From an uncultured Oscillospiraceae bacterium (lineage in GTDB: Bacteria; Bacillota; Clostridia; Oscillospirales; Oscillospiraceae): a stretch of 41,016 nucleotides of DNA. The notes beneath the pieces were generated by a model. It did no database searches, was not told the DNA's origin, and saw nothing but the letters and a program-made list of their open reading frames with translations. Shown here one piece after another: positions 3,716 through 29,163 of the stretch. The stretch's first letter is position 1. The number at the start of each line of letters is the position of its first letter. Where the stretch lies: positions 1 through 41,016 of the forward strand of contig CANREY010000125.1 in assembly GCA_947629755.1 (NCBI GenBank), written 5' to 3'. Position numbers and translations under genes: made by a program.

Positions 3716-3732
3716 GTGTACATTTTGGACAC
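3716..3732. promoter_or_regulatory. 17-bp palindrome, site 1 (upstream of int)
   Basis: GTGTACATTTTGGACAC, one broken pair in the arms. It lies 18 bases upstream of the integrase start. A more degenerate relative, GCACCCGAATCGAGTAC, follows at 3750-3766. Together they suggest a repressed integrase promoter, but I cannot find a good -10/-35 here. Confidence 0.6.
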
Positions 3733-3825
3733 AGAGATTTTCTCATGCGGCACCCGAATCGAGTACCGATTGCCACATTATTTCCTTCGGCCGAACAGTT
3801 TCGTTATCTGCATCAAACAGGGGGT

Positions 3826-4710
3826 TCAACGCGCGTATCGTTGCTCGACGGTCAACGCATTTTTCTTTCTCAGCAAAACCTCGGATCTGGCCGCCGGGTC
3901 TTTGAGACAACGAAAGTATAATTCAGCTGTTGATTCGCAGTCTCCCAAAGCTGTGTGCGGAACACCTTTTAACTTGTACTTTGCTCTTAACGTATCAAGC
4001 TTGTAATTTGGAGAGTACACAGCTTTTTTAACAAAATCCCAAACATCGAACGTTACATTGCTGATTGATTGCCCTGTTCGTGTTTGCAGAAATTTGATGT
4101 CATAGCTTACAAAGTATCCCATAATCAAATCGTCCCCAATAAACTTAAGAAAGTTTGGAAACTCATCTCTCAAGTACGGCGCATTTGCTACATCAGCCCA
4201 GGCTATGTGATTTTTTGCTTGTGATTCGGGGTCTATTTTTCCGAGTGGGCAGATGAAACTATGATAGTAGTCAACCGCCTTGTGATGGCGGTAGCGAATT
4301 GCTCCAATTTCCAGAATATCATTATTTGACGGGTCGAGGCCAGTGGTTTCGACATCAATAACTGTAAAGTCCTCTCCCGGTAGGGCGTCAGTCGCCAAGT
4401 AGGAATTTTGCAACGTCATGTACGGGGCTTTATGCACCGGCATGGGCGGAACACTTGCCTCTTTGTCACTCTGGTTAATTCCGCCGTCTTCATCAGGCCG
4501 GGACCTTTTGGTCCATGCCGCACGAGCGAATCCTATACTGAGAGTAATGGCAAGAACGACGGCCGCAACAATAAGAATCACCTTTGTCTGTATTGGGACG
4601 TTCTTCGGTACCACGAGGATAATGAAGGCAATAAACAATATAATTAAGAGCAGAGTCAAAATGATCCATAGTTGAATCGGGGTTAACTTCTGCCGCCATT
4701 TCTTTCTCAT
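3826..4710 (-). CDS. Membrane-anchored DEDDh (DnaQ-like) exonuclease 1
   Basis: A 294-residue protein. Two hydrophobic segments (about 12-34 and 43-65) form an N-terminal membrane anchor, then a charged linker, then an exonuclease RNase T/DnaQ fold from about 114. Exo I is DVETTGLD (D119, E121), followed by ILEIGAIRY; the C-terminal motif HTALGDCEST supplies the DEDDh His and Asp. The expected activity is 3'-5' degradation of DNA or RNA, here tethered to the membrane. The ATG at 4710 was chosen because GGGGGG precedes it; an upstream extension to 4839 would run through the palindrome and promoter. It is paralogous to exonuclease 2 with a zinc-ribbon gene between them. Its position between int and the repressor suggests a lysogeny-expressed accessory (moron) role such as exclusion of incoming DNA; that is inference. 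Confidence 0.85.
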   Translation of the reverse strand: MRKKWRQKLTPIQLWIILTLLLIILFIAFIILVVPKNVPIQTKVILIVAAVVLAITLSIGFARAAWTKRSRPDEDGGINQSDKEASVPPMPVHKAPYMTLQNSYLATDALPGEDFTVIDVETTGLDPSNNDILEIGAIRYRHHKAVDYYHSFICPLGKIDPESQAKNHIAWADVANAPYLRDEFPNFLKFIGDDLIMGYFVSYDIKFLQTRTGQSISNVTFDVWDFVKKAVYSPNYKLDTLRAKYKLKGVPHTALGDCESTAELYFRCLKDPAARSEVLLRKKNALTVEQRYAR

Positions 4711-4728
4711 ATTTTGCCCCCCTATTTC

Positions 4729-4745
4729 GTGTCCAAATTGGACAC
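4729..4745. promoter_or_regulatory. 17-bp palindrome, site 2 (operator of exonuclease 1)
   Basis: GTGTCCAAATTGGACAC is a perfect palindrome around one central base. It begins 2 bases downstream of a -10 box and ends 18 bases before the start codon, so it covers the transcription start. Confidence 0.75.
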
Positions 4746-4747
4746 CT

Positions 4748-4776
4748 ACTTTAATCAAACGGGTGTCAGCTTTCAA
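4748..4776 (-). promoter_or_regulatory. Promoter of exonuclease 1
   Basis: On the reverse strand TTGAAA (4776-4771) and TAAAGT (4753-4748) have a 17-base spacer. The palindrome at 4729-4745 overlaps the expected start point, the classical geometry for repression. Confidence 0.55.
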
Positions 4777-4842
4777 ATAGGAAGTCCAAAAAGGCATCCT
4801 CGGAAATGATTGAAATATCCTGCCCTTTAGTAGTAGCAAAGA

Positions 4843-5472
4843 TTATTTCGTGTATTCAAACAGATATTCTTTGCTTGACCACACGTTTGACTTAAACCTT
4901 ACCTCTATTGTTTTCCAATCAGAAGGAGCTTCATAACCCACAACGCCGTTCATTTTCTTACCGGGAGCTATGGCCCCGTCAAGTTGAGGCTTGTCTGAGC
5001 TCGTCAGAGCAGAAAGACTGACACTTGTAGAATAATCGTCTATGTATGCTTCAAAAGACATCATCGAGCTCACGGCAATATCGGCCTTCGAGTTGTTTTG
5101 GATTTCAAATTCGCAAATGACAAAGACCTTGCCCTCGGACGGGGTAATATAATTTGCGCCGCTACTCTCTTTCACGTTGACCAAAGTGACGATAACATCG
5201 TTGAGCTCCGCGCTTTCGCCTACTCCAAAGACAGTAGGCTCGTTTTTATTGGGCTGATTGTTGTCGTCCTCTCCCTGTATACTGCCGTCATTTACCTTTT
5301 TGGGTTGCTCCTTGCCTCCGCCAAAGGCGGCGGCGATCAGAACGACACCAACAAGAATGAGCAAAACCCCAAGAACCACATGCTTTTTCCGCTTTGCTCC
5401 ACACTTGGGACACACTTTCGCAGATTTAGCGATTTCTTGCCCACAGGCCTTACATTTTACCATTTTTGCCAT
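4843..5472 (-). CDS. Zinc-ribbon, single-pass membrane, DUF4352-type protein
   Basis: A 209-residue protein. A short zinc ribbon (C7xxC10 and C21xxC24) is followed by one transmembrane helix (about 32-50), an acidic Asn/Gln-rich linker, and a beta-rich domain (about 70-205, FGVGESAELNDVIVTL onward) typical of the DUF4352 immunoglobulin-like family. The ribbon would be cytosolic and the DUF4352 domain outside. Start at 5472 follows a GGAG-type site; an upstream frame to 5511 would include the palindrome. It lies between the two membrane exonucleases on the same strand and may work with them as a sensor or anchor. No enzymatic residues are visible. Confidence 0.75.
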   Translation of the reverse strand: MAKMVKCKACGQEIAKSAKVCPKCGAKRKKHVVLGVLLILVGVVLIAAAFGGGKEQPKKVNDGSIQGEDDNNQPNKNEPTVFGVGESAELNDVIVTLVNVKESSGANYITPSEGKVFVICEFEIQNNSKADIAVSSMMSFEAYIDDYSTSVSLSALTSSDKPQLDGAIAPGKKMNGVVGYEAPSDWKTIEVRFKSNVWSSKEYLFEYTK

Positions 5473-5492
5473 GTGAATTTCTCCTCTTCTCG

Positions 5493-5509
5493 GTATCCGA
5501 CTTGGATAC
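5493..5509. promoter_or_regulatory. 17-bp palindrome, site 3 (upstream of the zinc-ribbon gene)
   Basis: GTATCCGACTTGGATAC. Compared with the other sites both position 3 and its partner position 15 have changed (G/C to A/T), so symmetry is retained. It ends 20 bases before the start codon at 5472. Confidence 0.6.
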
Positions 5510-5529
5510 ATGGGTATAATGACGGTAAT

Positions 5530-6405
5530 TCAATCGGCGTACTTCTCGCGAATTGGGTTTTTGATTTTTTGCCTCTCTTTAATTTCGGCTTGTGCTGATG
5601 GTTCCTTAAGAATATGGAAAAAGACTTGTGCCGTGGACTCACAATCGCCGAGGGCAGTATGTCGAGGCCCGGATAAAGCATATCTGTCTCTGAGTGTGTC
5701 CAATTTGTAATTGCGGGAGGTAATAGAATCTCGTGCAAAAGCTAAGACATCAAATGTGATATTGCTTATACTTTCTTCGGCTCTTGTTTGTAGGAATTTC
5801 ATATCATAGCCGATATTATAGCCGAGCAAGAGATCCTCCCCGATGAAATCAATGAAATTAGGAAATTCTTCGGATAACAGTGGTGCCGATGCAACATTCT
5901 CCCAAGTGATATGATTTCTTTCCTGTGCTGCCGGATTGAGAGCTCCAAGCGGGCATATGTAGCTTTGATAACGTGCATCTTCTTTCCACCCGCGGTAGCG
6001 AATTGCTCCTATTTCGAGTATATCGTTATTTCGTGGGTCAAGGCCAGTTGTTTCTACATCAATGACTGTAAAATCCCCTTCTGGCATATCGACGGTCTCC
6101 CAATAATGCGAATTAAGAGGGCAATATGGCGCAGGGGTTGTTGGCATCCTCCGATTTTTAACCTTTTTTGCTCCGGCGGGAGATGATTTTGAAGTTTTGA
6201 AAATAGTCACAAGCCGAGGGACGAAGATCGCAGATAATATTGAAACTCCAGCCGCAAATAACACTCCCCAAAAATCAATCTGTATTGTACCGTCAACGGT
6301 AGGGTAAATGGCGGCAATAATAACCATGCACAGGTAGAACACAACAAGAAAAATAAATATTCTCAGCAAAATATGTTTTTTCTTGCCAGAATGCTTTTTA
6401 GGCAC
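5530..6405 (-). CDS. Membrane-anchored DEDDh (DnaQ-like) exonuclease 2
   Basis: A 291-residue paralogue of exonuclease 1 with the same plan: a Lys-rich N-terminus, two membrane segments (about 12-33 and 44-66), a linker, then the exonuclease domain from about 111 with DVETTGLD (D116, E118), ILEIGAIRYR, and HTALGDCEST near the end. The catalytic parts are clearly related between the two proteins while the membrane segments differ in sequence, which suggests selection for membrane anchoring rather than recent duplication. The start is GTG at 6405 with GGGTG upstream. A TATAAT -10 and palindrome site 4 lie directly upstream, so it is likely transcribed on its own. Confidence 0.85.
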   Translation of the reverse strand: MPKKHSGKKKHILLRIFIFLVVFYLCMVIIAAIYPTVDGTIQIDFWGVLFAAGVSILSAIFVPRLVTIFKTSKSSPAGAKKVKNRRMPTTPAPYCPLNSHYWETVDMPEGDFTVIDVETTGLDPRNNDILEIGAIRYRGWKEDARYQSYICPLGALNPAAQERNHITWENVASAPLLSEEFPNFIDFIGEDLLLGYNIGYDMKFLQTRAEESISNITFDVLAFARDSITSRNYKLDTLRDRYALSGPRHTALGDCESTAQVFFHILKEPSAQAEIKERQKIKNPIREKYAD

Positions 6406-6422
6406 TCACTTCACCCTTTCTT

Positions 6423-6439
6423 GTGCCCGAATCGGGCAC
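6423..6439. promoter_or_regulatory. 17-bp palindrome, site 4 (operator of exonuclease 2)
   Basis: GTGCCCGAATCGGGCAC, a perfect palindrome. It starts 3 bases downstream of a reverse-strand TATAAT and ends 17 bases before the GTG start, the same geometry as site 2. It is also about 27 bases upstream of a divergent rightward extended -10 promoter. Confidence 0.78.
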
Positions 6440-6442
6440 ATT

Positions 6443-6448
6443 ATTATA
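6443..6448 (-). promoter_or_regulatory. -10 box of exonuclease 2 promoter
   Basis: Reverse-strand TATAAT directly before palindrome site 4. No good -35 is present at 16-18 bases, so the promoter may need an activator or be weak. Confidence 0.5.
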
Positions 6449-6465
6449 GAATTTGCATTATTCTG

Positions 6466-6474
6466 TGATATAAT
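6466..6474 (+). promoter_or_regulatory. Extended -10 promoter reading toward the small ORF at 6524
   Basis: TGATATAAT matches an extended -10 (TGnTATAAT). No strong -35 is seen. A transcript starting near 6481 would read through the small ORF and be antisense to the 3' end of the repressor gene. Confidence 0.45.
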
Positions 6475-6523
6475 GTCCCCGGCGCTAATACAAGGTGGGA
6501 CGTTTCGCCGGAAAGGGAAATAC

Positions 6524-6667
6524 ATGGACATAGAAAAACTGATAAGGGCTATTTGCGCTCTTCAGCGGCTTGAGAAGCTTCTGCTCCTCTCACTGCTTCG
6601 ATCCCTTGAACAAAATAGTCCACCTTCTGACGATCCTCAGGACTCAGAGCCTTCACGCGGGAAATAA
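6524..6667 (+). CDS. Small Leu-rich peptide antisense to the repressor gene
   Basis: A 47-residue ORF starting MDIEKLIRAI, with a purine-rich ribosome site (GGAAAGGGAAA) 5-6 bases upstream and an extended -10 promoter about 50 bases upstream. The core RLEKLLLLSLLR is an amphipathic Leu-rich helix. A second small ORF in this prophage (22022) carries the closely similar RVEKLLLLYALR. The last 119 bases overlap the repressor gene on the other strand. Function unknown. The Ser/Pro-rich end may just follow from the overlapping frame, so reality depends on expression data. Confidence 0.4.
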   Translation: MDIEKLIRAICALQRLEKLLLLSLLRSLEQNSPPSDDPQDSEPSRGK

Positions 6668-6908
6668 GCTCATCATCCAGGGCCTCCTCTCCGATTTCGG
6701 AGAGGAGGCCCTCATTTTCGTCAGTTAATCCCAGCAGATAATCGACGGAAACTTTGAAGTATTTGGCTATACGCAGAGTGCTTTTCGCCGAGGGCGTTTT
6801 TAGCCCCGATTCCCAGCCGCTGACTGTCGCCTGGCTGACGCCAAGATCCACAGACACCTCTTTTTGAGATTTTCCTTGAGCTTCACGTAGCTGTTTTATG
6901 CGAAGCAT
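6549..6908 (-). CDS. CI-like repressor, XRE-family HTH
   Basis: A 119-residue DNA-binding protein with an N-terminal Cro/C1-type helix-turn-helix (RIKQLREAQGKSQKEVS, then VSQATVSGWESG) and the family's usual DYLLGLTD segment near residue 58-65. The short C-terminal tail has no S24 peptidase/autocleavage domain, so induction would not be by RecA-stimulated self-cleavage. It is the rightmost leftward gene and is divergent from a Cro-like gene, the standard lysogeny switch. ATG at 6908 is preferred over a GTG at 6917 because the AAGGAG site is too close to the latter. It is also a candidate binder of the dispersed palindromes. Confidence 0.85.
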   Translation of the reverse strand: MLRIKQLREAQGKSQKEVSVDLGVSQATVSGWESGLKTPSAKSTLRIAKYFKVSVDYLLGLTDENEGLLSEIGEEALDDELISRVKALSPEDRQKVDYFVQGIEAVRGAEASQAAEERK

Positions 6909-6997
6909 CGTGGCCACAACTCCTTGCTAACTGAGCTTTTCTTAATAATATAACTGCTGGGTATAAAACGCAATCAAAAAAAGTTTCCTAATAGTTA

Positions 6998-7026
6998 TTG
7001 ACAAGTGGGACAAACTGTGCTATTTT
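6998..7026 (+). promoter_or_regulatory. Rightward early promoter (PR-like)
   Basis: TTGACA (6998-7003) and TATTTT (7021-7026) are spaced by 17 bases. It drives the Cro-like gene at 7084 and probably the downstream replication genes. Confidence 0.75.
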
Positions 7027-7027
7027 A

Positions 7028-7040
7028 TAACCACCGGTTA
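7028..7040. promoter_or_regulatory. Candidate switch operator
   Basis: TAACCACCGGTTA is a 13-bp palindrome (5-bp arms, 3-bp centre) sitting over the expected start point of the PR-like promoter. It differs from the 17-bp family, so two regulators may act in this prophage. Confidence 0.4.
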
Positions 7041-7083
7041 AATATTGCCTGGGCATATAACTTTACGGAAAGGAGATGGGCAT

Positions 7084-7296
7084 ATGAAAAGAGTTTGGCT
7101 TGCGAACCTGCGCGCTTCTACTGGAAAGATGCAGAAAGATGTTGCAGATAGCGCCGGCATTTCTCAGCCGGCATATTCCAGCATTGAGGCAGGTACTAAG
7201 AACCCAACCGTGGAGACGGCCAAACGCATCGCCGCAGTATTGGGCTTTGATTGGACCATGTTCTTTGAGGAACCTTCATCTGGGGACAGCGCTTGA
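7084..7296 (+). CDS. Cro-like XRE-family regulator
   Basis: A 70-residue protein that is almost entirely a helix-turn-helix: MQKDVADSAGISQPAYSSIEAGTK spans helices 2 and 3, followed by an ETAKRIAAVLGF helix. Start ATG 7084 follows AAGGAGATGGGCAT; an in-frame ATG at 7045 lacks a ribosome site. It is divergent from the CI-like gene and directly behind a strong promoter, so it is the expected early antirepressor-type regulator (Cro role). It overlaps nothing and is followed after 15 bases by the next gene. Confidence 0.82.
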   Translation: MKRVWLANLRASTGKMQKDVADSAGISQPAYSSIEAGTKNPTVETAKRIAAVLGFDWTMFFEEPSSGDSA

Positions 7297-7311
7297 AAGG
7301 AGGAGCAAAAC

Positions 7312-7653
7312 ATGACGGGGCAGAGGTATCAGCTCAAGGCCACAAAGGCGAGGCTCTATGGGCTGGTAAAACGGCACTTCGAGGTACCGGTGGCGTGTCA
7401 GCAGACAAATTTCGTCAAGCGATCCAGAAACAGAGATTATGCGCTGAAATTCTTCTATGAAGGAAGGATATATAGTTTCTTCCTTGCGGAATGCAGTGGT
7501 AAGGTGGTGCTTTCCCGAATGGTTGATACTCTGCGCGTGGCGCATGACCGGACATGGGACGCCGTGGACATCCAGCTTACGGAGCTACTGGAGCAGGGGT
7601 TGGCAGAACCAATAACGGAGGCAATAGCACAAGTGGCATCTACCCAGAAATAA
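7312..7653 (+). CDS. Hypothetical early phage protein
   Basis: A 113-residue protein that I do not recognise. It begins after a good AAAGGAGG site and ends with an Ala/Gln-rich tail. It is mixed alpha/beta in composition, with no Cys pairs, signal peptide or membrane segment. It is co-directional between two HTH regulators, so a regulatory or host-takeover role in early infection is possible but not shown. Confidence 0.6.
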   Translation: MTGQRYQLKATKARLYGLVKRHFEVPVACQQTNFVKRSRNRDYALKFFYEGRIYSFFLAECSGKVVLSRMVDTLRVAHDRTWDAVDIQLTELLEQGLAEPITEAIAQVASTQK

Positions 7654-7680
7654 TTATACCCCAGGGAGGGGGCTGATACC

Positions 7681-8133
7681 ATGGACAAAAAACCGATAAA
7701 TATTATTCAAAGGGCGCGGAACGGTAAGGGTTTGACGCAGGAAGCGCTGGCGGAGATAGCCGGATGCTCGGTCGACTCCGTCCGGGCATGGGAGAGCGGG
7801 GTTAGAAACTGCCCTGTCGACATGCTGGGAAAACTGGGCGAGATACTGTCGGCCCCATGGCTGACCGGGGTATATCTCCGGGAACAGTCGACCAGCTTGG
7901 ACGCGCTGATCCCCGCCTTTACTATCGGCCGTCCTTTGCCCGAAGCCGCGGCGGAGTACATATCAAACGTCATGGACTTCGTCGACAACAAGTTTGACAG
8001 GGCGCTGCTGCGGATGGTGGCCGACGGCCATATTGACGACGTGGAATCCGAGATCTTCGAGAGGATCATGGAGACCGGGGAAGCCATCACAGTCGCGTAC
8101 TATGAGATGCGGTTTGCCGCAAGAAAGGAGTAA
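7681..8133 (+). CDS. XRE-family HTH protein
   Basis: A 150-residue protein. The N-terminal 60 residues form an XRE helix-turn-helix (KGLTQEALAEIAGCSVDSVRAW, ESGVRNCPVDML). The C-terminal 80 residues are helical and acidic with no recognised domain. A GGGAGGGGGC purine stretch precedes the ATG. It is in the early regulatory operon between the Cro-like gene and the excisionase-like gene; it could be an antirepressor or an activator of replication or late genes. Confidence 0.75.
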   Translation: MDKKPINIIQRARNGKGLTQEALAEIAGCSVDSVRAWESGVRNCPVDMLGKLGEILSAPWLTGVYLREQSTSLDALIPAFTIGRPLPEAAAEYISNVMDFVDNKFDRALLRMVADGHIDDVESEIFERIMETGEAITVAYYEMRFAARKE

Positions 8134-8136
8134 GTC

Positions 8137-8367
8137 ATGAGTGAATTGCTCAGCAGAAAAGAGGCCGCGAAGCGGTTGCATATGTCGGAGGATCTTTTGG
8201 ATCAGGAGAGGGCCAGCGGACACTTGGCGTATATCCAGCGCAAGCCTGGCGGCAAGGTATATATCACCGATACGGCCATAGAAGAATATCTTGCCAGGGC
8301 GACGCACCCGGCGAGAGTGACCACAAGGGGAACGATGGAAACATACCGCCGCCGGAGGGTGATATGA
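8137..8367 (+). CDS. Excisionase-like MerR/HTH_17 DNA-binding protein
   Basis: A 76-residue protein starting SELLSRKEAAKRLHMSEDLLDQ, the winged HTH_17 pattern of phage Xis-type and MerR-like DNA-binding proteins, followed by a beta-wing (GGKVYITDTAIEEYL). It starts 3 bases after the previous stop, so the two are translationally coupled. The 3' end of the gene lies inside the first copy of a 52-bp direct repeat, which makes its Arg-rich C-terminus (TYRRRRVI) likely to be repeat-derived. It could assist the integrase in excision or act as a replication regulator. Confidence 0.7.
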   Translation: MSELLSRKEAAKRLHMSEDLLDQERASGHLAYIQRKPGGKVYITDTAIEEYLARATHPARVTTRGTMETYRRRRVI

Positions 8368-8478
8368 GCGATGGGCGCACGGTATAAGACCATGAGAACA
8401 GTGATCACCGGGCACAAAAATGCCCCCCGCCGGACGGTGAATCCGGCGAGGGGCGCATGGTATAAAACCATGAGAACA
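8349..8478. repeat. Two copies of a 52-bp repeat, period 78
   Basis: 8349-8400 and 8427-8478 share CCGCCGGA, GGTGA and then a 28-bp block beginning GGGCGCA and ending CATGAGAACA that matches at 26 of 28 positions. The right copy contains the small RNA gene described next. The left copy overlaps the end of the preceding gene and lacks the matching promoter and strong terminator stem, so it looks like a decayed duplicate. Confidence 0.8.
8415..8477 (-). ncRNA. Candidate leftward small RNA 1 (about 63 nt)
   Basis: On the reverse strand TTGCAA (8512-8507), a 17-base spacer and TATAAT (8489-8484) form a near-consensus promoter, giving a start near 8477. The RNA would begin with a 6-bp hairpin (CATGGT-TTTAT-ACCATG) and end in a strong terminator: GCCCC plus CGCCGGA paired with TCCGGCG plus GGGGC (8422-8454), followed by TTTTTG. 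It has no ribosome site or sizeable ORF. It is divergent from the replication initiator at 8529, its -35 lying close to that gene's ribosome site. Confidence 0.55.
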
Positions 8479-8483
8479 TTTTT

Positions 8484-8512
8484 ATTATACCACAGCTCCC
8501 ACACTTTTGCAA
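8484..8512 (-). promoter_or_regulatory. Promoter of small RNA 1
   Basis: TTGCAA, 17 bases, TATAAT on the reverse strand. TTATACCA (8485-8492) is also the inverted complement of TGGTATAA (8458-8465). Confidence 0.6.
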
Positions 8513-8528
8513 GGGGGAATGAGGAAAA

Positions 8529-10663: not shown

Positions 10664-10704
10664 GCGGGTCTCAATAAACTTTAAAATCTTGACAGGAGGA
10701 AACC

Positions 10705-11481
10705 ATGAGAACAATAGCGATAATGAACCTTAAAGGGGGCGTTGCGAAAACCACCACGACGGTGAACGTGGCGGCGATCCTCGCCCATGATCACAAGAAA
10801 AAGGTGCTTGTGGTCGACGCGGACAGTCAATGCAACACCACCGAATTCCTCGGCTCGCCGACCGGGGGCGGTACCTTGGCTGATGTTCTGCGGGATAATG
10901 ATATTGGCATTTGGCAGAAGCAATATTTCCTTTATCGGTACGTCGTCGGAACAAATATCCCCAAGGTAGAGCTTATCTCCGGTAGCGATGAGCTTATGGA
11001 TCTGGACCTGACTAAGGTGGAAACGGACGCGGTCAACGTAGAATCCTTGCGTGAGATGCTAACTGGCTGCTCTTACGACTTCTGCCTTATTGATTGCCCG
11101 CCGGCATTCAACGCGGCCAGCGCCGCGGCGCTTCTGGCGGCGGACGAGGTCCTGATCCCTATTAAGCTGGACGCCTTTTCCCTGCGGGGAATGACGAACC
11201 TTATGCGTCAAATCGACAACATGAGGGCGATAAACCCCGATCTCAAGCTCCTTGGCTGTCTGCCTACAATGTGGTACGCCTGCGATCGCACCACGGACGC
11301 CGAAAAAACATTGCGGGATTACGGCTTTGCGGTACTCCCACATATACGCCGCACTGACAAGGTCGACGACATGACCTTTGCCCAGCGTCCGATCATTGAA
11401 TCCAGTCCTCGGAGCGCCGCGGCGATCGATTACCGGGCCTTTGTCCGTTGGCTCCTGAAGGGAGGCGGCGTAAATGGCTGA
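10705..11481 (+). CDS. parA: ParA-family partition ATPase
   Basis: A 258-residue Walker-type ATPase. The deviant Walker A KGGVAKTTT (residues 10-18) with its signature Lys, VVDADSQCN (motif A') and CLIDCPPAF (Walker B) are all present, with DEVLIPIKLDAFSLRG following. It would form nucleotide-dependent patterns on the nucleoid and move ParB-bound DNA. It overlaps the ParB gene by 8 bases. A complete par pair in an integrase-carrying phage suggests a stage of extrachromosomal maintenance, as in phage-plasmids, or use of ParA/ParB in replication or regulation. Confidence 0.9.
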   Translation: MRTIAIMNLKGGVAKTTTTVNVAAILAHDHKKKVLVVDADSQCNTTEFLGSPTGGGTLADVLRDNDIGIWQKQYFLYRYVVGTNIPKVELISGSDELMDLDLTKVETDAVNVESLREMLTGCSYDFCLIDCPPAFNAASAAALLAADEVLIPIKLDAFSLRGMTNLMRQIDNMRAINPDLKLLGCLPTMWYACDRTTDAEKTLRDYGFAVLPHIRRTDKVDDMTFAQRPIIESSPRSAAAIDYRAFVRWLLKGGGVNG

Positions 11482-12988
11482 TAAAAAAGGCTTTAACCTT
11501 GCTGAGGCCCTTGCGAGCGTGCCCAAATTGGACACCGCCGATGCCGGTCAAAAGAAGATAGAGTACATCGACACTGCCTACTTGTTCGACGATCCCAAAA
11601 ATTTTTACACGCTTTCAGATTTAGATTCCCTTGTGGAAAATATCGAGCTGGTCGGGCTCCAGCAACCGCTCCTTGTTCGCGCGGACCCGGAGAATCCGGG
11701 GTATTACGTAATCGTATCCGGGCATCGAAGAAGGGCTGCCATACGCAAGCTGGTGGATGAGGGCCGGGAGGACCTGCGCAAGATACCCTGCATTGTGGAG
11801 GCCGGGCAGGAGTCGGCGGCTATGCAGGAGCTGAGGCTCATTTTCGCAAACTCCAGCACCCGGAAGCTCACTGACGCGGAGCTCGCGGATCAGGCCGACC
11901 GTGTGACGGCCCTGCTCTATCAGCTCAAGGAGGAGGGAGTAGAGTTTCCCGGCCGTATGAGAGACCACGTGGCCGAGGCATGTCAGGTGAGCAAATCAAA
12001 GCTTGCGCGGCTGAAGGTTATCAAAGAAAAGCTTGAGCCGCCGTTTATTCAGCGATGGCAAGCCGGTGAACTGGACGAATCCCCGGCCTATGAGCTGGCC
12101 CGAATGCCCATGGAAATTCAGTGGCGAATCGGCAAGTTTAAAAAGCTCCCCTCCACCAGCGCCCTGTCGGCAATTCGGGAGAAGGCCGAGAAGGGGGCCA
12201 CGTGGACGCCGACGCTCAGATGTCCGGGCGGGACCCCGTGTACTAATTCCGACAATTTTCTGCGGTTGGCTGGAGAGCGTCCCTATAAAAACTGCGACGG
12301 ATCTAAGTGCTGCCTTGAGTGCTATGATGGGGCAAATTGTGATCATTATTGCTGTGACCGTATGTGCGCCGAGGCCAAAGCCACAAGGGCGGAGCGGCAA
12401 AGAAAGGAGAAAGATCGTCTCGACGCATCAGCGCAAAAGCGTTTGACAGAGGCTCAGCGTAAGACCATCCCTTTCGCAAAGCGGGTGATCCGCGCAGCTG
12501 ATGCGGCTGATTTGGCTGACGATGTAAGAATCAAATGGTGCAATTGGGGTATTGCGACTGTCGGCGACGCCAGGAATTGGGCAGATGGATGCTTCAAGAA
12601 CTGGCCCAAGTATGGAGCGGAATATCCACGGTTTGCTCCTAATGAATTGTTTTTTCCTCTTGAGACCTCGAAAACTCTGAAGTGTTCCGCCGACTATCTG
12701 CTGGGTCTGACCGACGATCTCCACCCCGGCGCGTCTCCAACCGGTTATATCACCGAGGGGAATCCCCCGGAGCCCACTGAGGCAATGGTACTACTGAATT
12801 ACGACATGGACGTGCCGTTTCGCCTTGATGCGAAATGGGATGGACATGGTTGGTGGGCGGCCGGCACGGCACTTACCGAAAAAGTCCTGGCGTGGTATCC
12901 TCTCCCGCCAACTCCGAAGATGTCGGAATTAAGCAAAGGCTCAAAGAATGAAGATCCTGATACGGAGGGCGACAATGACGAGACTTAA
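11474..12988 (+). CDS. parB: ParB-family protein with mosaic C-terminal half
   Basis: 504 residues, longer than ordinary ParB. Residues about 28-135 form the ParB N-terminal (CTPase) fold, with the box SGHRRRAAIRKL near 90. A KorB/ParB HTH region follows (about 160-200, ACQVSKSKLARLKVI). Next are a Cys-rich stretch (about 249-300, with ten or more Cys, possibly zinc-binding), a fragment resembling the XRE repressor tail (ADYLLGLTDD, about 402-412), and a C-terminal domain ending EKVLAWYPLPPTP that resembles DUF551. A palindrome of the 17-bp family (11519-11535) lies within codons 16-21. It overlaps parA and probably binds specific sites in this genome. Confidence 0.8.
   Translation: MADKKGFNLAEALASVPKLDTADAGQKKIEYIDTAYLFDDPKNFYTLSDLDSLVENIELVGLQQPLLVRADPENPGYYVIVSGHRRRAAIRKLVDEGREDLRKIPCIVEAGQESAAMQELRLIFANSSTRKLTDAELADQADRVTALLYQLKEEGVEFPGRMRDHVAEACQVSKSKLARLKVIKEKLEPPFIQRWQAGELDESPAYELARMPMEIQWRIGKFKKLPSTSALSAIREKAEKGATWTPTLRCPGGTPCTNSDNFLRLAGERPYKNCDGSKCCLECYDGANCDHYCCDRMCAEAKATRAERQRKEKDRLDASAQKRLTEAQRKTIPFAKRVIRAADAADLADDVRIKWCNWGIATVGDARNWADGCFKNWPKYGAEYPRFAPNELFFPLETSKTLKCSADYLLGLTDDLHPGASPTGYITEGNPPEPTEAMVLLNYDMDVPFRLDAKWDGHGWWAAGTALTEKVLAWYPLPPTPKMSELSKGSKNEDPDTEGDNDET
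11519..11535. promoter_or_regulatory. 17-bp palindrome, site 5 (inside parB)
   Basis: GTGCCCAAATTGGACAC, one mismatched pair. It is 45 bases into the parB reading frame, a position suited to autoregulation, transcription roadblock or partition loading. Because it is coding (SVPKLDT) the match may partly be chance. Confidence 0.5.
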
Positions 12989-17900: not shown

Positions 17901-18559
17901 ACAATAAGCATTTGCCACAGTCGTGCGGAAATTGTAGGTACAGAAATGTAAGTATCTTTGATGGGCCTTGCAATTTTTGTCGACATTCGTTCTATCCGGG
18001 CGGGGATATGGATTGTTGGAGAAAGCGCCGTTGTTGGCAGACGCCGAATGTCACCCGCATATTGGCCGCGCTGATGGCCCTCGCAGCGCTGGTTGCGCTT
18101 CTGGTGTTTGGTAAAACAACGGCCATAGCGGCAGGATTCGATGATGAGCTCACGGCCCGACAGGAGGAGGTACACGCTGCGGCGGAGCTCTTGAGGGAGC
18201 TGGGCGTTGCCGAGGAGGACGCGGCGATTAAGGCCTTGTCCGTTGAGTGGTGGCGGTGTGAGCGGCTTCGTGGGGCACGGTATCTGGGGGTGTACACGGT
18301 CACGGGCTATGACATCGACTGCCCCCACTGCCAAGGTAAATACGTTAATCAATCGGCGTCGGGAGTACAGCTTACGCCGGGGCGGTCGGTGGCGATGTGC
18401 AAGGATTTTCCGTTTGGTACGGAGATTTACATAGAGGGGCTGGGCTTTTACGTCGTTGAGGACCGAGGCGTGGGGCCGGGACAAATTGATGTGGCGTGTT
18501 CAAGTCATTCGGAGTGCTATGCGCTGACGGGTCATTATGAGGTGTGGGTGCTAAAGTGA
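17897..18559 (+). CDS. Membrane protein with C-terminal 3D domain
   Basis: 220 residues. A Cys-rich head (CGNCRYRN, CNFCRHS) precedes one transmembrane helix (about 53-72), a helical linker (75-110), and a 3D domain: YTVTGYDIDCPHC, SVAMCKDFPFGTEIYIEGLGFYVVEDRG, then GQIDVACSSHSEC. The three Asp that name the domain (double-psi beta barrel, as in MltA/RpfB-type cell wall enzymes) are visible. A type II orientation would place the 3D domain outside, where it could act on peptidoglycan. It is unusual so far from lysis genes. Confidence 0.72.
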   Translation: MNNKHLPQSCGNCRYRNVSIFDGPCNFCRHSFYPGGDMDCWRKRRCWQTPNVTRILAALMALAALVALLVFGKTTAIAAGFDDELTARQEEVHAAAELLRELGVAEEDAAIKALSVEWWRCERLRGARYLGVYTVTGYDIDCPHCQGKYVNQSASGVQLTPGRSVAMCKDFPFGTEIYIEGLGFYVVEDRGVGPGQIDVACSSHSECYALTGHYEVWVLK

Positions 18560-18909
18560 AATCTCATACATATTCCTGCCGAGTTGATCCCGATCCGCCT
18601 GAACCGTTGGTGTGCGCGATATGCGGTAAGCCGGCTGTGGCGTTATGTGATTATCGGAAATATTGGCATTGTGGCCCCGTAGTGCGTACATTTGGCAAAA
18701 TACTTCCACAATTCAACCCCATAATCGCCAGTATTCGCACCTGTGACCGGCCCTTGTGCGCGGAGCACGCTTTCCATGCTGGACCGAATGAGGATTACTG
18801 TCCGGATCACTGCTCCGAGGTCTCCCGTGCGAGGAGCCGATGGGCGGAAACGGTATTTCGGGCCCAGTGCCGTAAGCTTGAAATAGATGTGCCCGATTCG
18901 GGCACGTAG
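18556..18909 (+). CDS. Cys/His-rich putative zinc-binding protein
   Basis: 117 residues from a GTG that overlaps the previous stop (GTGA). CAICGKPAVALCDY, CDRPLCAEH and YCPDHC suggest a cross-brace-like double zinc finger. The last codons and stop contain palindrome site 6. Function unknown; nucleic-acid or protein binding is plausible from the fingers. Confidence 0.6.
   Translation: MKSHTYSCRVDPDPPEPLVCAICGKPAVALCDYRKYWHCGPVVRTFGKILPQFNPIIASIRTCDRPLCAEHAFHAGPNEDYCPDHCSEVSRARSRWAETVFRAQCRKLEIDVPDSGT
18889..18905. promoter_or_regulatory. 17-bp palindrome, site 6
   Basis: GTGCCCGATTCGGGCAC, a perfect palindrome. It is at the stop of the upstream gene and ends 20 bases before the start of the small membrane protein gene at 18926. 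No convincing promoter is seen here. Confidence 0.7.
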
Positions 18910-21503: not shown

Positions 21504-21535
21504 ATACTTATGGTGACACAAAAGGAGGTGGCGCG

Positions 21536-21769: not shown

Positions 21770-21775
21770 AAATTT

Positions 21776-21804
21776 ATTATACCGTAGCCTCCGGGAAATT
21801 TCAA
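21776..21804 (-). promoter_or_regulatory. Promoter of small RNA 2
   Basis: Reverse strand TTGAAA (21804-21799), 17 bases, TATAAT (21781-21776). The -35 abuts the ribosome site of the rightward gene at 21815. Confidence 0.65.
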
Positions 21805-21814
21805 GGAGGTTTTT

Positions 21815-22015: not shown

Positions 22016-22021
22016 CCAGCG

Positions 22022-22877: not shown

Positions 22878-22889
22878 AGACCACGGGCC
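22862..22889 (+). ncRNA. Structured RNA element, copy B
   Basis: GAGCCGAGA, stem GTCT, loop TAA (the HNH stop codon), stem AGAC, then CACGGGCC. It has the same layout as copy A in a different reading frame and copy C in non-coding DNA, so conservation is not due to protein sequence. It overlaps the terminator stem that follows. Confidence 0.55.
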
Positions 22890-22940
22890 AGTGTGAAGCT
22901 GCAGTTTGTCTGCGGTACCGACACTGGCCTTTATTCTTTT
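22886..22940 (+). terminator. Intrinsic terminator before terL
   Basis: GGCCAGTGT (22886-22894) pairs perfectly with ACACTGGCC (22921-22929), with an inner GCAG/CTGC hairpin, followed by TTTATTCTTTT. The terL ribosome site AGGAGG begins 13 bases later, so terL is transcribed only by read-through or antitermination unless a promoter is hidden here. Confidence 0.75.
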
Positions 22941-22954
22941 CAGGAGGTTTTGAT

Positions 22955-24757: not shown

Positions 24758-25018
24758 CAGAACCTTTTTGACCGTGCCCGATTTGGGCACATACCGATTT
24801 TGCCTTGCCGCCGCGTTGACATCTGCGCCATGCGGAAAGAGCGGCGGCAAAGGCCCCTATATGTCCCAGCCCGGCGCGTGAGCCGGACGGGACCTGTCCT
24901 TCCTTTCCAAATGTATAAGACCATCAGGCCGGTAAAGGTCTCGGCTGTGTCCCGTGCCAGCGGGCACAACCGCTCCAGTGCAATTCTGGTGAGCCGGTAT
25001 TCCAATTTGTCCTTTTGC
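24758..25018 (+). ncRNA. Highly structured non-coding region between terL and the head genes
   Basis: No supported protein gene lies here. In order it holds palindrome site 7; a long stem GCCTTGCCGCCGC (24802-24814) with GCGGCGGCAAAGGC (24841-24854), one bulge; GTCCC/GGGAC enclosing CCGGC/GCCGG (24863-24893); AGACC/GGTCT (24918-24941); CGG-TGTG-CCCG paired with CGGG-CACA-CCG (24942-24972); and CCAG/CTGG (24974-24988). Five consecutive hairpins, followed by RNA element C and a terminator, suggest a leader RNA of the head operon or a free small RNA. Confidence 0.45.
24774..24790. promoter_or_regulatory. 17-bp palindrome, site 7
   Basis: GTGCCCGATTTGGGCAC, 16 bases after the terL stop codon. 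Identical to site 8. No start codon with a ribosome site follows within 30 bases, so here it could act as a roadblock, centromere-like site or hairpin rather than a promoter operator. Confidence 0.7.
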
Positions 25019-25046
25019 GAGCCGAGAGACTGCAAGTCCACGGGCC
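25019..25046 (+). ncRNA. Structured RNA element, copy C
   Basis: GAGCCGAGA, stem GACT, loop GCA, stem AGTC, then CACGGGCC. Flanks are identical to copy B, while the 4-bp stem differs by compensating changes (GTCT/AGAC versus GACT/AGTC). Confidence 0.55.
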
Positions 25047-25089
25047 GGGGATCAGACAGCATCTGATTTCCGGCCCGATTTTTTGTTTT
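25041..25089 (+). terminator. Intrinsic terminator before the head operon
   Basis: CGGGCCGG (25041-25048) pairs with CCGGCCCG (25070-25077), with an inner ATCAG/CTGAT stem, followed by ATTTTTTGTTTT. Its 5' arm uses the last bases of RNA element C, so the two structures compete. Confidence 0.8.
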
Positions 25090-25100
25090 CGGAGGTGCTT

Positions 25101-25304
25101 ATGAATCGCTTTTTGAAAGCTTCCCGTAAGGCGCTGGAAGCGATCATGCCAACGGCGCTTGTGTTGATCGGCGCTGTGGCCATAGCGGTGGGCGTCGGTA
25201 TGATCTATATACCGGCCGGTGTTATTGCCGGTGGGGCATTGGCGGCGGTCTGCGGCATTGTGCTGATTTTGGGAGGAGGTGGCGGCAATGGCAAACAGAT
25301 TTGA
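25101..25304 (+). CDS. Small two-helix membrane protein
   Basis: 67 residues. A short amphipathic N-terminus is followed by two hydrophobic helices (AIMPTALVLIGAVAIAVGVG and the following AGVIAGGALAAVCGIVLIL) and a Gly-rich end. GGAGGTGCTT precedes the ATG. It overlaps the portal gene by 17 bases. Its size and topology are holin-like, but the position between terL and portal is common for small membrane proteins of unknown role in Firmicutes phages. Confidence 0.6.
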   Translation: MNRFLKASRKALEAIMPTALVLIGAVAIAVGVGMIYIPAGVIAGGALAAVCGIVLILGGGGGNGKQI

Positions 25305-26589
25305 GCGGGGAGTCCATGCTTTAGCAGCCGGAACACCCCCGCGGGCGTCCCCTATCAGGAACGCCGTACCGGCACTCACGGTGGCAAGCCCCGAAGGGTG
25401 GCCCACGGGGAGCTCCACTGAGTCTGGCGCTATGAAATTGTCGGCGGTAAATCGTTGCCAAGTGCTGATAAGCGAGTCTTTGGGAAAAATGCCGATCTAC
25501 TGCATTGACTCGGAGCGGCGGCGGGTGGGCCACGATCTGCTCTATATGCTGAATGTACGGCCCAACGAGGCAATGACGCCCAGCGTAGAGAGGCAGATGG
25601 TGGAGGGGAACAGGCTGAGCGGCGGAAATGGCTATGAGTGGATCATACGCGACTCACGCACGGGGCGGCCTGTTGAGCTCATTCCACTGCCATGGGAATT
25701 GGTACACCCGTTTAAGGACAGCAATGGCGTGATCTGGTACGGAGTCTCTCACCCGGACACCGGGGCGTCTATGGTGCTATCAAGCCAGGACGTGTGCCAT
25801 TACAAAGCATATACCCACGACGGATTGACCGGCATCTCGATCCTGCGGCGGGCCTCGGAGGTGGTAAACGCTGGGAGAGCCGCTCAGCAGTATGAGGCAA
25901 ATTTCTTCGCAAACAGCGGACGGCCCTCCGGGGTACTGACGGTGGATACAGATTTAAGCGGCACTGTGCCGGAAACTGACGCCAATGGCAATGTGAAACA
26001 AATCAAGATGAAGGATGTTATCAGATCGGAGTGGGAGCGGGTCCACGCGGGGCCCAACAACGCCCACCGGATCGCCATTCTAGACCACGGTCTCAAGTAC
26101 CAGCCCATATCCGTCTCCAACGCCGACGCTCAATTTGTGGAGTCCAAGGCTGTGACAGTTGAGGACATCGCCCGTTTTTACGGCGTGCCTCTTTCAAAGC
26201 TCTACGCCGGGAAACAGGCTTATAACTCAAATGAGCAAAATGCCATCGACTACGTAGTCTCCACGCTCCACCCCATTGTGACCCAGTACGACCAGGAACG
26301 GACCTATAAACTGTTTCTTGATTCGGAGATAGCCCATGGGCTCAGGCTCCGGGCCAACATGATGGTGGAGCTGAAGGGTGACATCAAAAGCCGCGGCGAG
26401 TGGTACAAGGCCATGCGTGAAATCGGAGCTTTTTCAGTCAACGATATTCTGGCCTTGGAGGACTTGCCGTCAGTTGATGGCGGCGATGAGAGGTACGCCT
26501 CCCTCAACTACGTGCCACTCTCCCTGTTCCGACAACTCAGTATCAATCGAAACTCAAACGGAGGTAAAAACAATGAGGGTACAGCTTAA
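25288..26589 (+). CDS. Portal protein, HK97 family
   Basis: A 433-residue portal forming the dodecameric DNA channel at one capsid vertex. Family landmarks include ESGAMKLSAVNRCQVLISES, LYMLNVRPNEAMTP, GNGYEWIIRDSRTGRPVELIPL, and the stem/clip region ending FYGVPLSKLYAGKQAYNSNEQ. Full length. ATG 25288 follows GGGAGGAGGTGGCGGCA. It is between terminase and protease, the standard order. Confidence 0.95.
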   Translation: MANRFERGVHALAAGTPPRASPIRNAVPALTVASPEGWPTGSSTESGAMKLSAVNRCQVLISESLGKMPIYCIDSERRRVGHDLLYMLNVRPNEAMTPSVERQMVEGNRLSGGNGYEWIIRDSRTGRPVELIPLPWELVHPFKDSNGVIWYGVSHPDTGASMVLSSQDVCHYKAYTHDGLTGISILRRASEVVNAGRAAQQYEANFFANSGRPSGVLTVDTDLSGTVPETDANGNVKQIKMKDVIRSEWERVHAGPNNAHRIAILDHGLKYQPISVSNADAQFVESKAVTVEDIARFYGVPLSKLYAGKQAYNSNEQNAIDYVVSTLHPIVTQYDQERTYKLFLDSEIAHGLRLRANMMVELKGDIKSRGEWYKAMREIGAFSVNDILALEDLPSVDGGDERYASLNYVPLSLFRQLSINRNSNGGKNNEGTA

Positions 26590-27391
26590 CGGCTATGTGG
26601 TGGCTGACGATGACGTCTACTTTTACAGGTTTTTCGGCATCATCTGCTTTTCTCCGAGGGATGTGAGGCAGTTCCTGGCCAGCAACCCGAAGGGGGAGGA
26701 CCTTGTGCTGGAGATCAACAGCCCCGGCGGGTCTGTAATTCCGGGCTTTGAAATGTACTCGGCCTTGCGAGCCAACCGGGGCAATGTGCATGTTGTGGCC
26801 GAGGTACAGTCCCTGTCGGCCTCGGCGGCTTCGGTGCTGATGCTGGGTTGTGACCGGGTAATGCTTTCGCCGGTGGCGCAGGTCATGATCCATCTGCCCT
26901 CTACCACCACGGAGGGCAACGTCAATGACCATCGCGCCGCCATCAGGATGCTTGAGAGCACCACCACGTCCATACTTAACGCCTACGAGCTGAAGGTGGG
27001 CGGAAAACTCACCCGCGAGGACCTGGACGATCTTATCCGCGCGGAGACATGGATGCCGGCCCAACAGGCCGTGTCAGCGGGGCTGGCGGACGGGATCCTC
27101 TATCAGGAAGGCGAAACGCCTCTGGTGATCCCGGAGAACATCACCAATGCCGTTGGCGGCGGGATCCGCGCCCTGGCTATGAGCTCCGGGGCCATGCCCT
27201 CGGCGGAGAGCCTCCGGGCCAGGTATCAGAAGTTGGTGGATGAGGGCAAGGCCCCCGCGGTGAACGAGGACGGTACGCCGGTGGCTCCGGTCCCCCCAGC
27301 GAACCCCGCGCCCAATAGCGGGGCCATGAAGGACGACTGGCGGAACCTCGCCAGGGTCGAATTGAGTAAAAAACGGTTCCTTGCGAACTGA
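26573..27391 (+). CDS. Head maturation protease, ClpP/S14 type
   Basis: 272 residues. The ClpP fold covers about 1-190: INSPGGSVIPGFEMYSAL, the Ser in SLSASAAS (about 84), the His in VMIHLPS (107), with the acidic residue following. The Pro-rich C-terminal extension may serve as scaffold or be processed. It cleaves capsid precursors during maturation. The start overlaps the portal end by 17 bases after a GGAGGTAAAAACA site. Confidence 0.93.
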   Translation: MRVQLNGYVVADDDVYFYRFFGIICFSPRDVRQFLASNPKGEDLVLEINSPGGSVIPGFEMYSALRANRGNVHVVAEVQSLSASAASVLMLGCDRVMLSPVAQVMIHLPSTTTEGNVNDHRAAIRMLESTTTSILNAYELKVGGKLTREDLDDLIRAETWMPAQQAVSAGLADGILYQEGETPLVIPENITNAVGGGIRALAMSSGAMPSAESLRARYQKLVDEGKAPAVNEDGTPVAPVPPANPAPNSGAMKDDWRNLARVELSKKRFLAN

Positions 27392-27412
27392 AATTTGAAC
27401 GGAGGTAAAAAT

Positions 27413-28624
27413 ATGCGCGATAAACTCATGAGAAAGTTGCTGGATCTGAAAAACCAGCGGGCCGTCCAGTGGACCGCCGCCTGTACGGCCGTGGACGCCA
27501 ATGACGAGGCGGCCTACAATGCCGCCATTGCCAAGGTGGACGAAATCGACGCCGAGATCGCAAAAAACCAGAAGCTCCTTGACAAGTACCAGCCCCCCGC
27601 AACCGATACCGTGCTCGGCAACACCGTCAACGGCGCCAACAACAGCAACCTTGCGGCGCTCCGGTCCTCCAACGAGTATGTGAGGACTTTCTGCGATGCT
27701 ATCCGCAACGGCGTCACCCGCCGGGACGCCCGGAGGAGCGCGGACTACCACATCCTGACCGACGCCCTGACCGAGGGCACCGACACTGACGGCGGCTTCC
27801 TTGTGCCCGTGGACCTTGAGACCAGAATCAACGAGCTCCGGAGGCAGTTCGTCTCCCTGCGGAGCCTGATCACCGTGGAGCCTGTCACTACCCTGACCGG
27901 CTACCGGGTGCTGGACACCGCCCCCACCAAGGGCTTCACCAAACTGTCCGAGATGGGCGATATACCCCAGGATGACCAGCCCAAATTCAGCCGTTATGAC
28001 TTCAAGGTGGAGGACTACGGCCTGATCGTCCCCATCTCCAACGACCTCCTGCAGGACAACGACGCCGGCCTTATCCAGTACCTGGCCCGCTGGATGGCCA
28101 AGAAGTCTGTCATAACGGAGAACCTGGGGATTTTGACGATTCTGGACTCCATCGAGGATCCTACCACCTTGGATGCGGGGCAGGAGATCGTGGGTATCAA
28201 GAAGGCCCTGAACGTGAGCCTTGATCCCGACATCGCCCTGCGGGCCCGGCTCCTCTGCAATCAGACCACCTACAACGTCATGGACAACATCGAGGACAAT
28301 CAGGGACGCCCCATGATGCAACCCGACATTACCGCCGGCACCGGTTACCAGTTCAAGGGCAAGGGCATCACCGCCATCGGCAACACCTTCCTGAAGGACG
28401 ACGAGACCGGATCCCCGCTGTATGTGGGATCCTTCGCCGACGCCATCACCATGTTCGACCGGCAGGTTATGGAGTTGGCCACCACCAACATCGGCGGCAA
28501 GGCTTGGTCCACCAACTCTACCGAGGCCCGCGCCATCATGCGCTTCCAGATGAAGCATGTGGACAAGGAAGCCATTGTGGCCCTGAAACTGGCCGCCGGT
28601 AAGACCTCCGGCATCGGCGGTTGA
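27413..28624 (+). CDS. Major capsid protein, HK97 fold
   Basis: 403 residues. The N-terminal 105 residues are helical and charged (delta/scaffold-like domain: LLDLKNQRAVQW, AAIAKVDEIDAEI) and probably removed by the protease. The mature coat starts near LTEGTDTDGGFLVP, followed by the E-loop/P-domain/A-domain pattern of the phage_capsid family (FDRQVMELATTN, EARAIMRFQMKHV). Ribosome site GGAGGTAAAAAT. Confidence 0.95.
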   Translation: MRDKLMRKLLDLKNQRAVQWTAACTAVDANDEAAYNAAIAKVDEIDAEIAKNQKLLDKYQPPATDTVLGNTVNGANNSNLAALRSSNEYVRTFCDAIRNGVTRRDARRSADYHILTDALTEGTDTDGGFLVPVDLETRINELRRQFVSLRSLITVEPVTTLTGYRVLDTAPTKGFTKLSEMGDIPQDDQPKFSRYDFKVEDYGLIVPISNDLLQDNDAGLIQYLARWMAKKSVITENLGILTILDSIEDPTTLDAGQEIVGIKKALNVSLDPDIALRARLLCNQTTYNVMDNIEDNQGRPMMQPDITAGTGYQFKGKGITAIGNTFLKDDETGSPLYVGSFADAITMFDRQVMELATTNIGGKAWSTNSTEARAIMRFQMKHVDKEAIVALKLAAGKTSGIGG

Positions 28625-28638
28625 TGGAGGGCTTGACG

Positions 28639-29145
28639 ATGGCAAAGAGAAACGAATCCTCCACGCCGGGGGCTAAGACGAAAGAGAACAAATCCCCTGC
28701 TCCGGGGGCTGTGGCGGCCCCTGAGGGCTCTTTGACGGAGACGGCGGGTAATTCCACCGCCGTAACCGAAGCGGCCACAGCGGCCCCTGTGGCGGCTCAG
28801 GGCGAGGATAAGGCTCAGCCCTTGCCCTCGGCTGATCCCACTGTGGAGCTGGACGACACGGACAGGGCCGCCGCCGGCAGCTGGGACGACTTGGATGACG
28901 GCAACGGTGAGGGGGCTCGGCTCATGACCGTCACCTACAAGCCGGGTATCTATCTGCGAATCGGCCCCGGTAAGAATTTCGCCCACCGGCGGGTCCTGCC
29001 CTTCGGCACGCTGGTGTTCCCCGCGATCGTACCGGACTACGCCAAAGTCCCCGGCTGGCTTTGCGTGGGCACCGACAGCGGCGACGGAGAAACGATCATC
29101 TACGGCTGGGTCGACGAGACCCTGGTAGAGGATATGAAAGCCTGA
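28639..29145 (+). CDS. SH3-like domain protein, possible head decoration
   Basis: 168 residues. The first 80 are low-complexity Ala/Thr/Pro/Glu-rich. The rest resembles a bacterial SH3 domain (MTVTYKPGIYLRIGPGKNF, LPFGTLVFPAIV, IYGWVDETLV). GGAGGGCTTGACG precedes the chosen ATG. Its place directly after the capsid gene suggests a head-associated protein or decoration, but the family is broad. Confidence 0.6.
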   Translation: MAKRNESSTPGAKTKENKSPAPGAVAAPEGSLTETAGNSTAVTEAATAAPVAAQGEDKAQPLPSADPTVELDDTDRAAAGSWDDLDDGNGEGARLMTVTYKPGIYLRIGPGKNFAHRRVLPFGTLVFPAIVPDYAKVPGWLCVGTDSGDGETIIYGWVDETLVEDMKA

Positions 29146-29146
29146 T

Positions 29147-29163
29147 GTGCCCGATTTGGGCAC
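29147..29163. promoter_or_regulatory. 17-bp palindrome, site 8
   Basis: GTGCCCGATTTGGGCAC begins 2 bases after the stop of the SH3-like gene and ends 18 bases before the GTG start of the connector gene, immediately 5' of its GGAGGTGAGGACT site. Confidence 0.72.

Follow-up and report, generated by a model that had tools for sequence, protein, structure and literature searches.

Dispersed palindromes in an Oscillospiraceae prophage as probable parS-like sites of a phage-encoded ParABS system

The window analyzed here, a stretch of 41,016 nucleotides (nt) that constitutes contig CANREY010000125.1 (contig C125 in this analysis) of the 2.2-Mb genome of an uncultured Oscillospiraceae bacterium (GCA_947629755.1), carries a prophage along which eight 17-bp palindromes are dispersed. 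These palindromes are probably parS-like sites of a phage-encoded ParABS system that are spread along the phage genome instead of being clustered at one centromere. The best-supported candidate for their binder is the phage ParB, acting through its helix-turn-helix (HTH), and not the CI-like repressor. Specifically, this centromere-like reading, one of several offered by an original prediction made from the sequence alone, is supported by a site that lies inside parB, by covariation between ParB residues and site bases, and by the dispersal of the sites.

Palindromes in the window and in related phages

All eight palindromes named in the original prediction were recovered at up to three mismatches, compared with a mean of 1.11 and a maximum of 4 in 100 shuffles, none of which held eight; a proposed ninth, weaker site at 3750 has four mismatches and was not counted. 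Six of the eight match the predicted consensus exactly, the mismatches numbering two at 3716 and three at 5493, and the paired change that keeps site 5493 symmetric is real. The sites are concentrated in the prophage and not in the host, as had been anticipated, with all six exact copies of the consensus in the whole genome located in the window. At up to two mismatches, the genome contains 13 sites (seven in the window) versus six for a reversed control, and the general motif GTGYCCRNNNYGGRCAC at zero mismatches gives six genome-wide matches versus four for its reversed control. The eight sites are as follows, with the spacing between site end and start codon counted by eye.

3716..3732, minus strand: degenerate copy, 1 mismatch to the core, 18 nt before int
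4729..4745, minus strand: exact site, 18 nt before RNase T-like exonuclease 1
5493..5509, minus strand: degenerate yet symmetric copy, 2 mismatches to the core, 20 nt before a zinc-ribbon DUF4352 gene
6423..6439, minus strand: exact site, 17 nt before exonuclease 2; a TATAAT ends 3 nt upstream (by eye)
11519..11535, plus strand: exact site in parB, starting at residue V16 (VPKLDT)
18889..18905, plus strand: exact site overlapping the 3' end of open reading frame 18544-18909, 21 nt before ATG 18927
24774..24790, plus strand: exact site directly after the large terminase gene
29147..29163, plus strand: exact site, 18 nt before the head-tail adaptor gene (GTG 29182)

The flanks of site 24774 are similar to those of sites in contigs G006:C19 (21923) and G002:C24 (39606).

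The site recurs in related prophages, which the original prediction had proposed to compare, and GTGYCCRNNNYGGRCAC is dispersed in many related phages. A single-protein ParB query of viral contigs gave no match; an alignment query found ParB relatives. Homologues of ParB are encoded by Cormatin, MT835558, MT836068 and seven prophages of related genomes, and the motif is again dispersed on their contigs. These ten contigs were not chosen by motif, and the nine larger ones contain three to nine exact sites in the stretch taken (four in the Flavonifractor phage Cormatin), the 13-kb fragment MT836068 containing two. Among 199 genomes, all seven with a ParB at E < 1e-90, the cut used here for a strong match, carry 4-16 exact sites, compared with any exact site in 60 and four or more in 8 of the 192 genomes without a strong match; of these eight, contigs of G022, G037, G085, G098 and G118 were examined, and G052, G061 and G110 were left out. 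Overall, 173 exact sites are found in 1167 kb of ParB loci versus 0 for the reversed pattern, and base 4 is symmetric between the two halves in 136 of 169 sites.

Searches that started from the motif lead back to ParB. A scan of IMG/VR with two narrow versions of the motif returned 94 and at least 120 stretches, respectively, against 8 for a reversed control that was matched to the first version only. Fifty viral contigs (49 of the 52 listed contigs of at least 24 kb plus one 16-kb fragment) were picked by motif and blind to ParB from 80 of the 94 and 80 of the at least 120 matches, and a ParB relative is present in 35 of them: 18/20 with at least four sites, 5/8 with three, 8/11 with two and 4/11 with one. 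One apparent site array was rejected, as the four copies at 24-bp steps in L174 (6339-6427) belong to a tandem repeat within the coding sequence of another gene (PVPKSGTT) and reflect a codon coincidence.

ParB as the candidate binder

Two adjacent genes of the prophage encode the proposed partition proteins.

10705..11481, plus strand: parA, ParA-like ATPase, directly upstream of parB
11474..12988, plus strand: parB, the proposed binder, with a ParB_N domain, an HTH (EFPGRMRDHVAEACQVSKSKLARLKVI) and a cysteine-rich C-terminal part

ParA matches AAA_31 (E 2e-38) and phrog_164 and contains MNLKGGVAKTT. In 159 of 171 loci, its gene immediately precedes parB, in some with overlap, and many of the loci in this count and in the 80-locus count below come from overlapping contigs and are not fully independent. 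The ParB_N domain is found by Pfam in 21/21 members of the ParB family, the profile of which has Noc, Spo0J and ParB chains among its matches (best 4e-16). The window ParB contains GHRR at 83 and NSSTRKLT from 126, and its N-terminal part is predicted to adopt a CTPase fold. The HTH of ParB (FPGRMRDHVAEAC..SKSKLARLKVI), with recognition-helix residues K174 and R179 in the window protein, is strongly conserved, and the start of the HTH is the stretch that the search tool picked as most conserved. As a separate observation, the C-terminal half of the window ParB (11474-12985) is cysteine-rich, has a WYPLP-like ending and matches no Pfam family.

The position of one site within parB connects the palindromes with this protein. 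In the best 80 of 103 loci, which were chosen by ParB alone, a 207-nt window around the parB start contains an exact site in 53 and a one-mismatch site in 9, at codons 16-24; together, these 62 of 80 compare with 1.9% of random windows from the same loci (n = 1389; 1.7% for exact sites). The peptides encoded at this position vary (VPKLDT, VPESGT, VSDSDT), which suggests that the DNA itself is kept, beyond the peptide that it encodes.

Covariation further connects the recognition helix to the bases of the site. Across the first 240 ParB columns, helix residue 174 (Lys versus others) predicts base 4, GTGCCC versus GTGTCC (p 2e-7, 61 loci), also when only the 180 sites outside parB are used (p 1.4e-7, 66 loci). 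Only one of these columns is more strongly associated with base 4, namely the residue that the internal site itself encodes; this indicates that internal and dispersed sites have one common preference. The best columns of other proteins on shared loci reach 4e-4 for hth150, 7e-5 for Rep, 7e-5 for ParA and 6e-4 for DnaD. At the second position, Glu replaces R179 in 5 of 102 ParBs, and the canonical internal site is present in 0/5 of these versus 85/97 of the others (Fisher 7e-5); the 102 proteins are what remains of 122 non-redundant ParBs after a cut by HTH-start pattern, with a sixth Glu-type protein (L456) left out. When L456 is counted, a symmetric variant, GTGYCGRNNNYCGRCAC, occurs in four of six Glu-type phages. 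The Glu-type phage L390 carries the variant inside parB with one extra base, the Glu-type phage L436 carries none, and the variant motif is found in 15 IMG/VR stretches.

A number of results weigh against the assignment to ParB. The internal site is missing in 18 of the 80 loci, and four C-terminal columns have lower p values than position 179 across the 102 ParBs. ParA reaches 1e-5 on its own 65 loci, and one DnaB column reaches 5e-7 for base 7, surpassing residue 174 of ParB (2e-6) on the same 56 loci, so that shared descent contributes to the covariation. The independent changes are few, namely four for K174 and three for E179 (two of them on starred branches), and tree-aware sign tests therefore cannot reach significance. 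The Arg-type phage G205 (IMGVR_UViG_2799112543_000001) has three exact copies of GTGTCGGNNNCCGACAC at 2477, 11954 and 14283, and the variant is thus not exclusive to Glu-type phages. The protein itself also departs from expectation: the 21 family members have no Pfam match C-terminal to ParB_N in common and no known dimerization domain, and the canonical ParA-binding motif LG[RK]GL was not seen by eye in the window ParB, whose N-terminus reads MADKKGFNLAEAL. It is possible that the C-terminus holds a dimerization domain of an unrecognized type, and another N-terminal peptide may stand in place of LG[RK]GL.

Phages that carry sites but lack this ParB belong to the same count, with the qualification that a viral contig may be a fragment. 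The six exact sites of G037:C18 come without a ParA or ParB of this family, and the G037 genome contains no ParB relative at E up to 1e-3. ParA and ParB of this family are likewise missing from G233 and G237 (three sites each) and from the fragment G243 (two sites), where the only ParB_N protein is methyltransferase-like. In G201 and G218, with five sites each, ParA is followed by a DUF3102 protein (PF11300) where ParB is expected, possibly as a non-homologous replacement of the centromere-binding protein.

L320:4342-5430 (G201) and L324:3834-4940 (G218): DUF3102 proteins directly after parA

The truncated parA of G210 accompanies three sites. These exceptions leave room for another binder, for hijacking or for recent loss. 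The proposal that, in phages without ParAB, the sites hijack a ParB supplied by a co-resident phage or plasmid, or are left over from a recent loss, is one that we consider possible while leaning against it. Exact sites persist in G037:C18, G233, G237 and G243, and hijacking has a precedent in SGI1, whose parS mimics use the ParABS of IncC plasmids (PMC10954446). A helper for G037:C18 would, however, need to be transient, given that its genome has no ParB relative, and another binder is equally possible there.

Two side observations concern the same phages. With three variant beside five canonical sites, G205 harbors two dispersed site families in one phage, and the DUF3102 protein of G218 has an N-terminal peptide, KFDMGEFAKTL, as in some ParBs.

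Site placement and alternative readings

In 17 ParAB-bearing contigs, each of which has four to nine sites (median six), the median gap is 5.4 kb and the sites are more evenly spaced than by chance. The coefficient of variation of the gaps is 0.50 versus 0.78 for random placement between the outermost sites (0/2000 as low), and 11 gaps are shorter than 1.5 kb versus 20.2 at random (p 0.005). The data are compatible with a model, drawn by analogy, in which each site would load ParB clamps that spread, so that ParB could cover most of a phage genome of ~35-45 kb. ParA would then move or hold the ParB-covered phage DNA in its extrachromosomal phases, which follow infection or excision and replication. 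On the integrated prophage, ParB may damp nearby transcription, above all that of leftward genes whose start regions abut a site. The system may serve partition, silencing or both: the retention of ParA beside ParB favors a partition-type role, and integration together with even spacing suggests an additional role in coating or silencing.

According to the original prediction, six sites end 17-20 bases before a start codon. Five do, including those of all four leftward genes, and the sixth lies 21 bases before ATG 18927. In aggregate, the adjacency holds, as a site adjoins a Shine-Dalgarno sequence and start codon in 65 of 141 cases versus 13.5% of 7200 random positions, and much of this may be explained by placement in intergenic gaps. 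As for the suggested overlap with promoters, 7 of 66 sites are preceded by a -10-like box at 1-6 nt, versus 4.8% at random, which in this crude test is at most a weak enrichment, and promoter overlap thus does not appear to be general. At G006:C12 45985 and G022:C72 1828, a terminator-like hairpin and T run ends at the site and is followed by a Shine-Dalgarno sequence (by eye), leaving no room for a promoter. Sites G201 8587 and G218 40431 lie in the 3' part of genes that by eye resemble single-strand-binding-protein genes.

The same placement could mean that ParB is mainly a long-range transcriptional silencer comparable to KorB, with partition secondary or lost, a reading that appears rather unlikely. 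It is in line with the many sites that abut a ribosome-binding site and start codon, with the four leftward genes of the window that each have a site (two of them degenerate), with the integrated state of relatives, and with the even spacing, which suits coating. Furthermore, passages of PMC11790492 describe KorB of RK2 as a clamp of the ParB family able to silence promoters at distances of up to 1.5 kb. A pure repressor, however, would not need the ParA that ParB keeps in nearly all loci, and promoter overlap does not appear to be general. Also doubtful on balance is an extended version in which ParB, loaded at the evenly spaced sites of integrating prophages, would form a genome-wide coat that marks the free phage for positioning by ParA and quiets the integrated prophage; site-only relatives would exploit a co-resident ParB, and the motif would link phages in incompatibility or helper relations. 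RNA hairpins at the 5' ends of messages, acting in translation control or stability, are highly improbable as an explanation. Sites just upstream of Shine-Dalgarno sequences, stems of 6-7 bp and halves that usually match at base 4 would fit such hairpins, but C-A mismatches and T-G wobbles are equally common when the sites are read on the mRNA strand (four each; for the second pair, 13 A-C and 12 G-T), which argues against RNA pairing, and sites lie inside parB and other genes.

The operator and stoperator reading of the original prediction involves a different binder, namely a phage repressor that would occupy the sites and keep lytic genes off. Two proteins of the window are candidates.

6549-6917: CI-like protein
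7681..8133, plus strand: HTH regulator, phrog_6499; nearly every motif-bearing phage examined has a relative; disfavored as binder

Palindromes of 17 bp suit dimeric HTH proteins, their dispersal and intergenic placement resemble those of stoperators, and BLASTP relatives of phrog_6499 occur in 24-25 of 26 motif-bearing genomes, ParAB-less ones included, with cross-hits to other HTH proteins possible. This reading is nonetheless improbable, because the gap between CI and cro (6918-7083) has no site, its best motif match having six mismatches, and because phrog_6499 proteins from phages that share the motif differ strongly in their recognition helix. In addition, the best covariation of phrog_6499 reaches 4e-4 versus 2e-6 for ParB on the same 42 loci. 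The stoperators of L5-like mycobacteriophages are similarly numerous over the genome and mostly outside promoters; according to passages of PMC6550527, they are asymmetric, mostly oriented in one direction and bound by the immunity repressor, whereas the sites here are palindromes. The HUH Rep protein (g19137) was also disfavored as binder, being common to most phages and having a best covariation of 7e-5. As a further observation on the CI-cro gap, ATAACT/AGTTAT occurs there in three copies (6950, 6993, 7057), with 14 in the whole window, and these copies are possibly the real CI/Cro operators.

Integration and comparison with known systems

The prophage encodes a tyrosine integrase, CI/Cro-like regulators, a DnaD-like replication initiator, DnaB, ParA, ParB, an HUH-type Rep (PF23343) and head genes. 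Its left junction is marked by two features.

2408..2452, minus strand: tRNA-Val 3' end, likely attachment core, at the left junction
2504..3697, minus strand: tyrosine integrase

Contig C106 of this genome carries a complete tRNA-Val(gac) that ends identically. All 11 sites found in the G019 genome are inside a prophage bounded by 63-bp attachment repeats at tRNA-Ser, and in G025 all five lie between 31-bp attachment repeats at tRNA-Gly, with an integrase present in both. The integrase model, which is broad, matched in 9/10 and 9/11 ParB-bearing contigs in two sets, and passages of PMC10197239 list Cormatin as an induced prophage with coordinates on the F. plautii chromosome. An extrachromosomal phage-plasmid without integration was rejected on the basis of the attachment repeats and integrases of G019 and G025 and the tRNA-Val end and integrase of the window; a transient plasmid stage of these integrating phages is possible.

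Phage N15, with four IR sites dispersed on its genome, resembles the present phages in that its SopABC system includes phage-encoded ParA/ParB relatives and several palindromic sites, but N15 is a linear plasmid prophage, whereas integrase and tRNA attachment repeats here show integration. Compared with IR1-IR4, which have GTG...CAC ends (passages of PMC7205306), the phages described here have about six sites per genome, one of them usually inside parB. KorB matches the ParB profile at only E 0.01. The sites of KorB are mostly at promoters and KorB/IncC belongs to a plasmid, in contrast to the sites here, for which promoter overlap does not appear to be general. KorB/IncC of RK2 is nevertheless similar, as it pairs a protein of the ParB family with many operators (12 binding sites, according to a reference title in PMC11790492) and combines partition with regulation. 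The Cluster A mycobacteriophage parABS of RedRock likewise joins ParA, ParB and parS in temperate phages; there, according to passages of PMC7157519, parABS replaces the integrase and the parS loci consist of eight direct repeats of 8 bp, whereas the present phages combine an integrase with ParAB and have single palindromes as sites. The ParB-CTPase-DUF3850 proteins (PNAS 2025, PMC12704722) are also prophage ParB-fold proteins with an unusual C-terminus encoded beside parA, but DUF3850 was matched by Pfam in 0/21 ParB family members here, and the passages of that paper that concern these proteins name no parS. Among the open-licence papers searched, none was found to describe this motif or parS-like sites dispersed along integrating prophages.

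If the ParABS reading is correct, the site code of a partition system would become readable in many phages, most of them with an integrase as well; such a plasmid-type function is unexpected in viruses that insert into the chromosome. The natural Lys/Ala and Arg/Glu variants of the recognition helix, with their matching site variants, make this code directly testable, and Cormatin offers an accessible Flavonifractor lysogen. Should the even spacing reflect coating by ParB, such prophages could serve as a simple model for domain-wide silencing or for the positioning of integrated DNA.

In the leftward cargo region of the window, the two RNase T-like exonuclease genes (3826-4710 and 5530-6405) have a 114-nt stretch in common at 79% identity and represent a duplicated gene.

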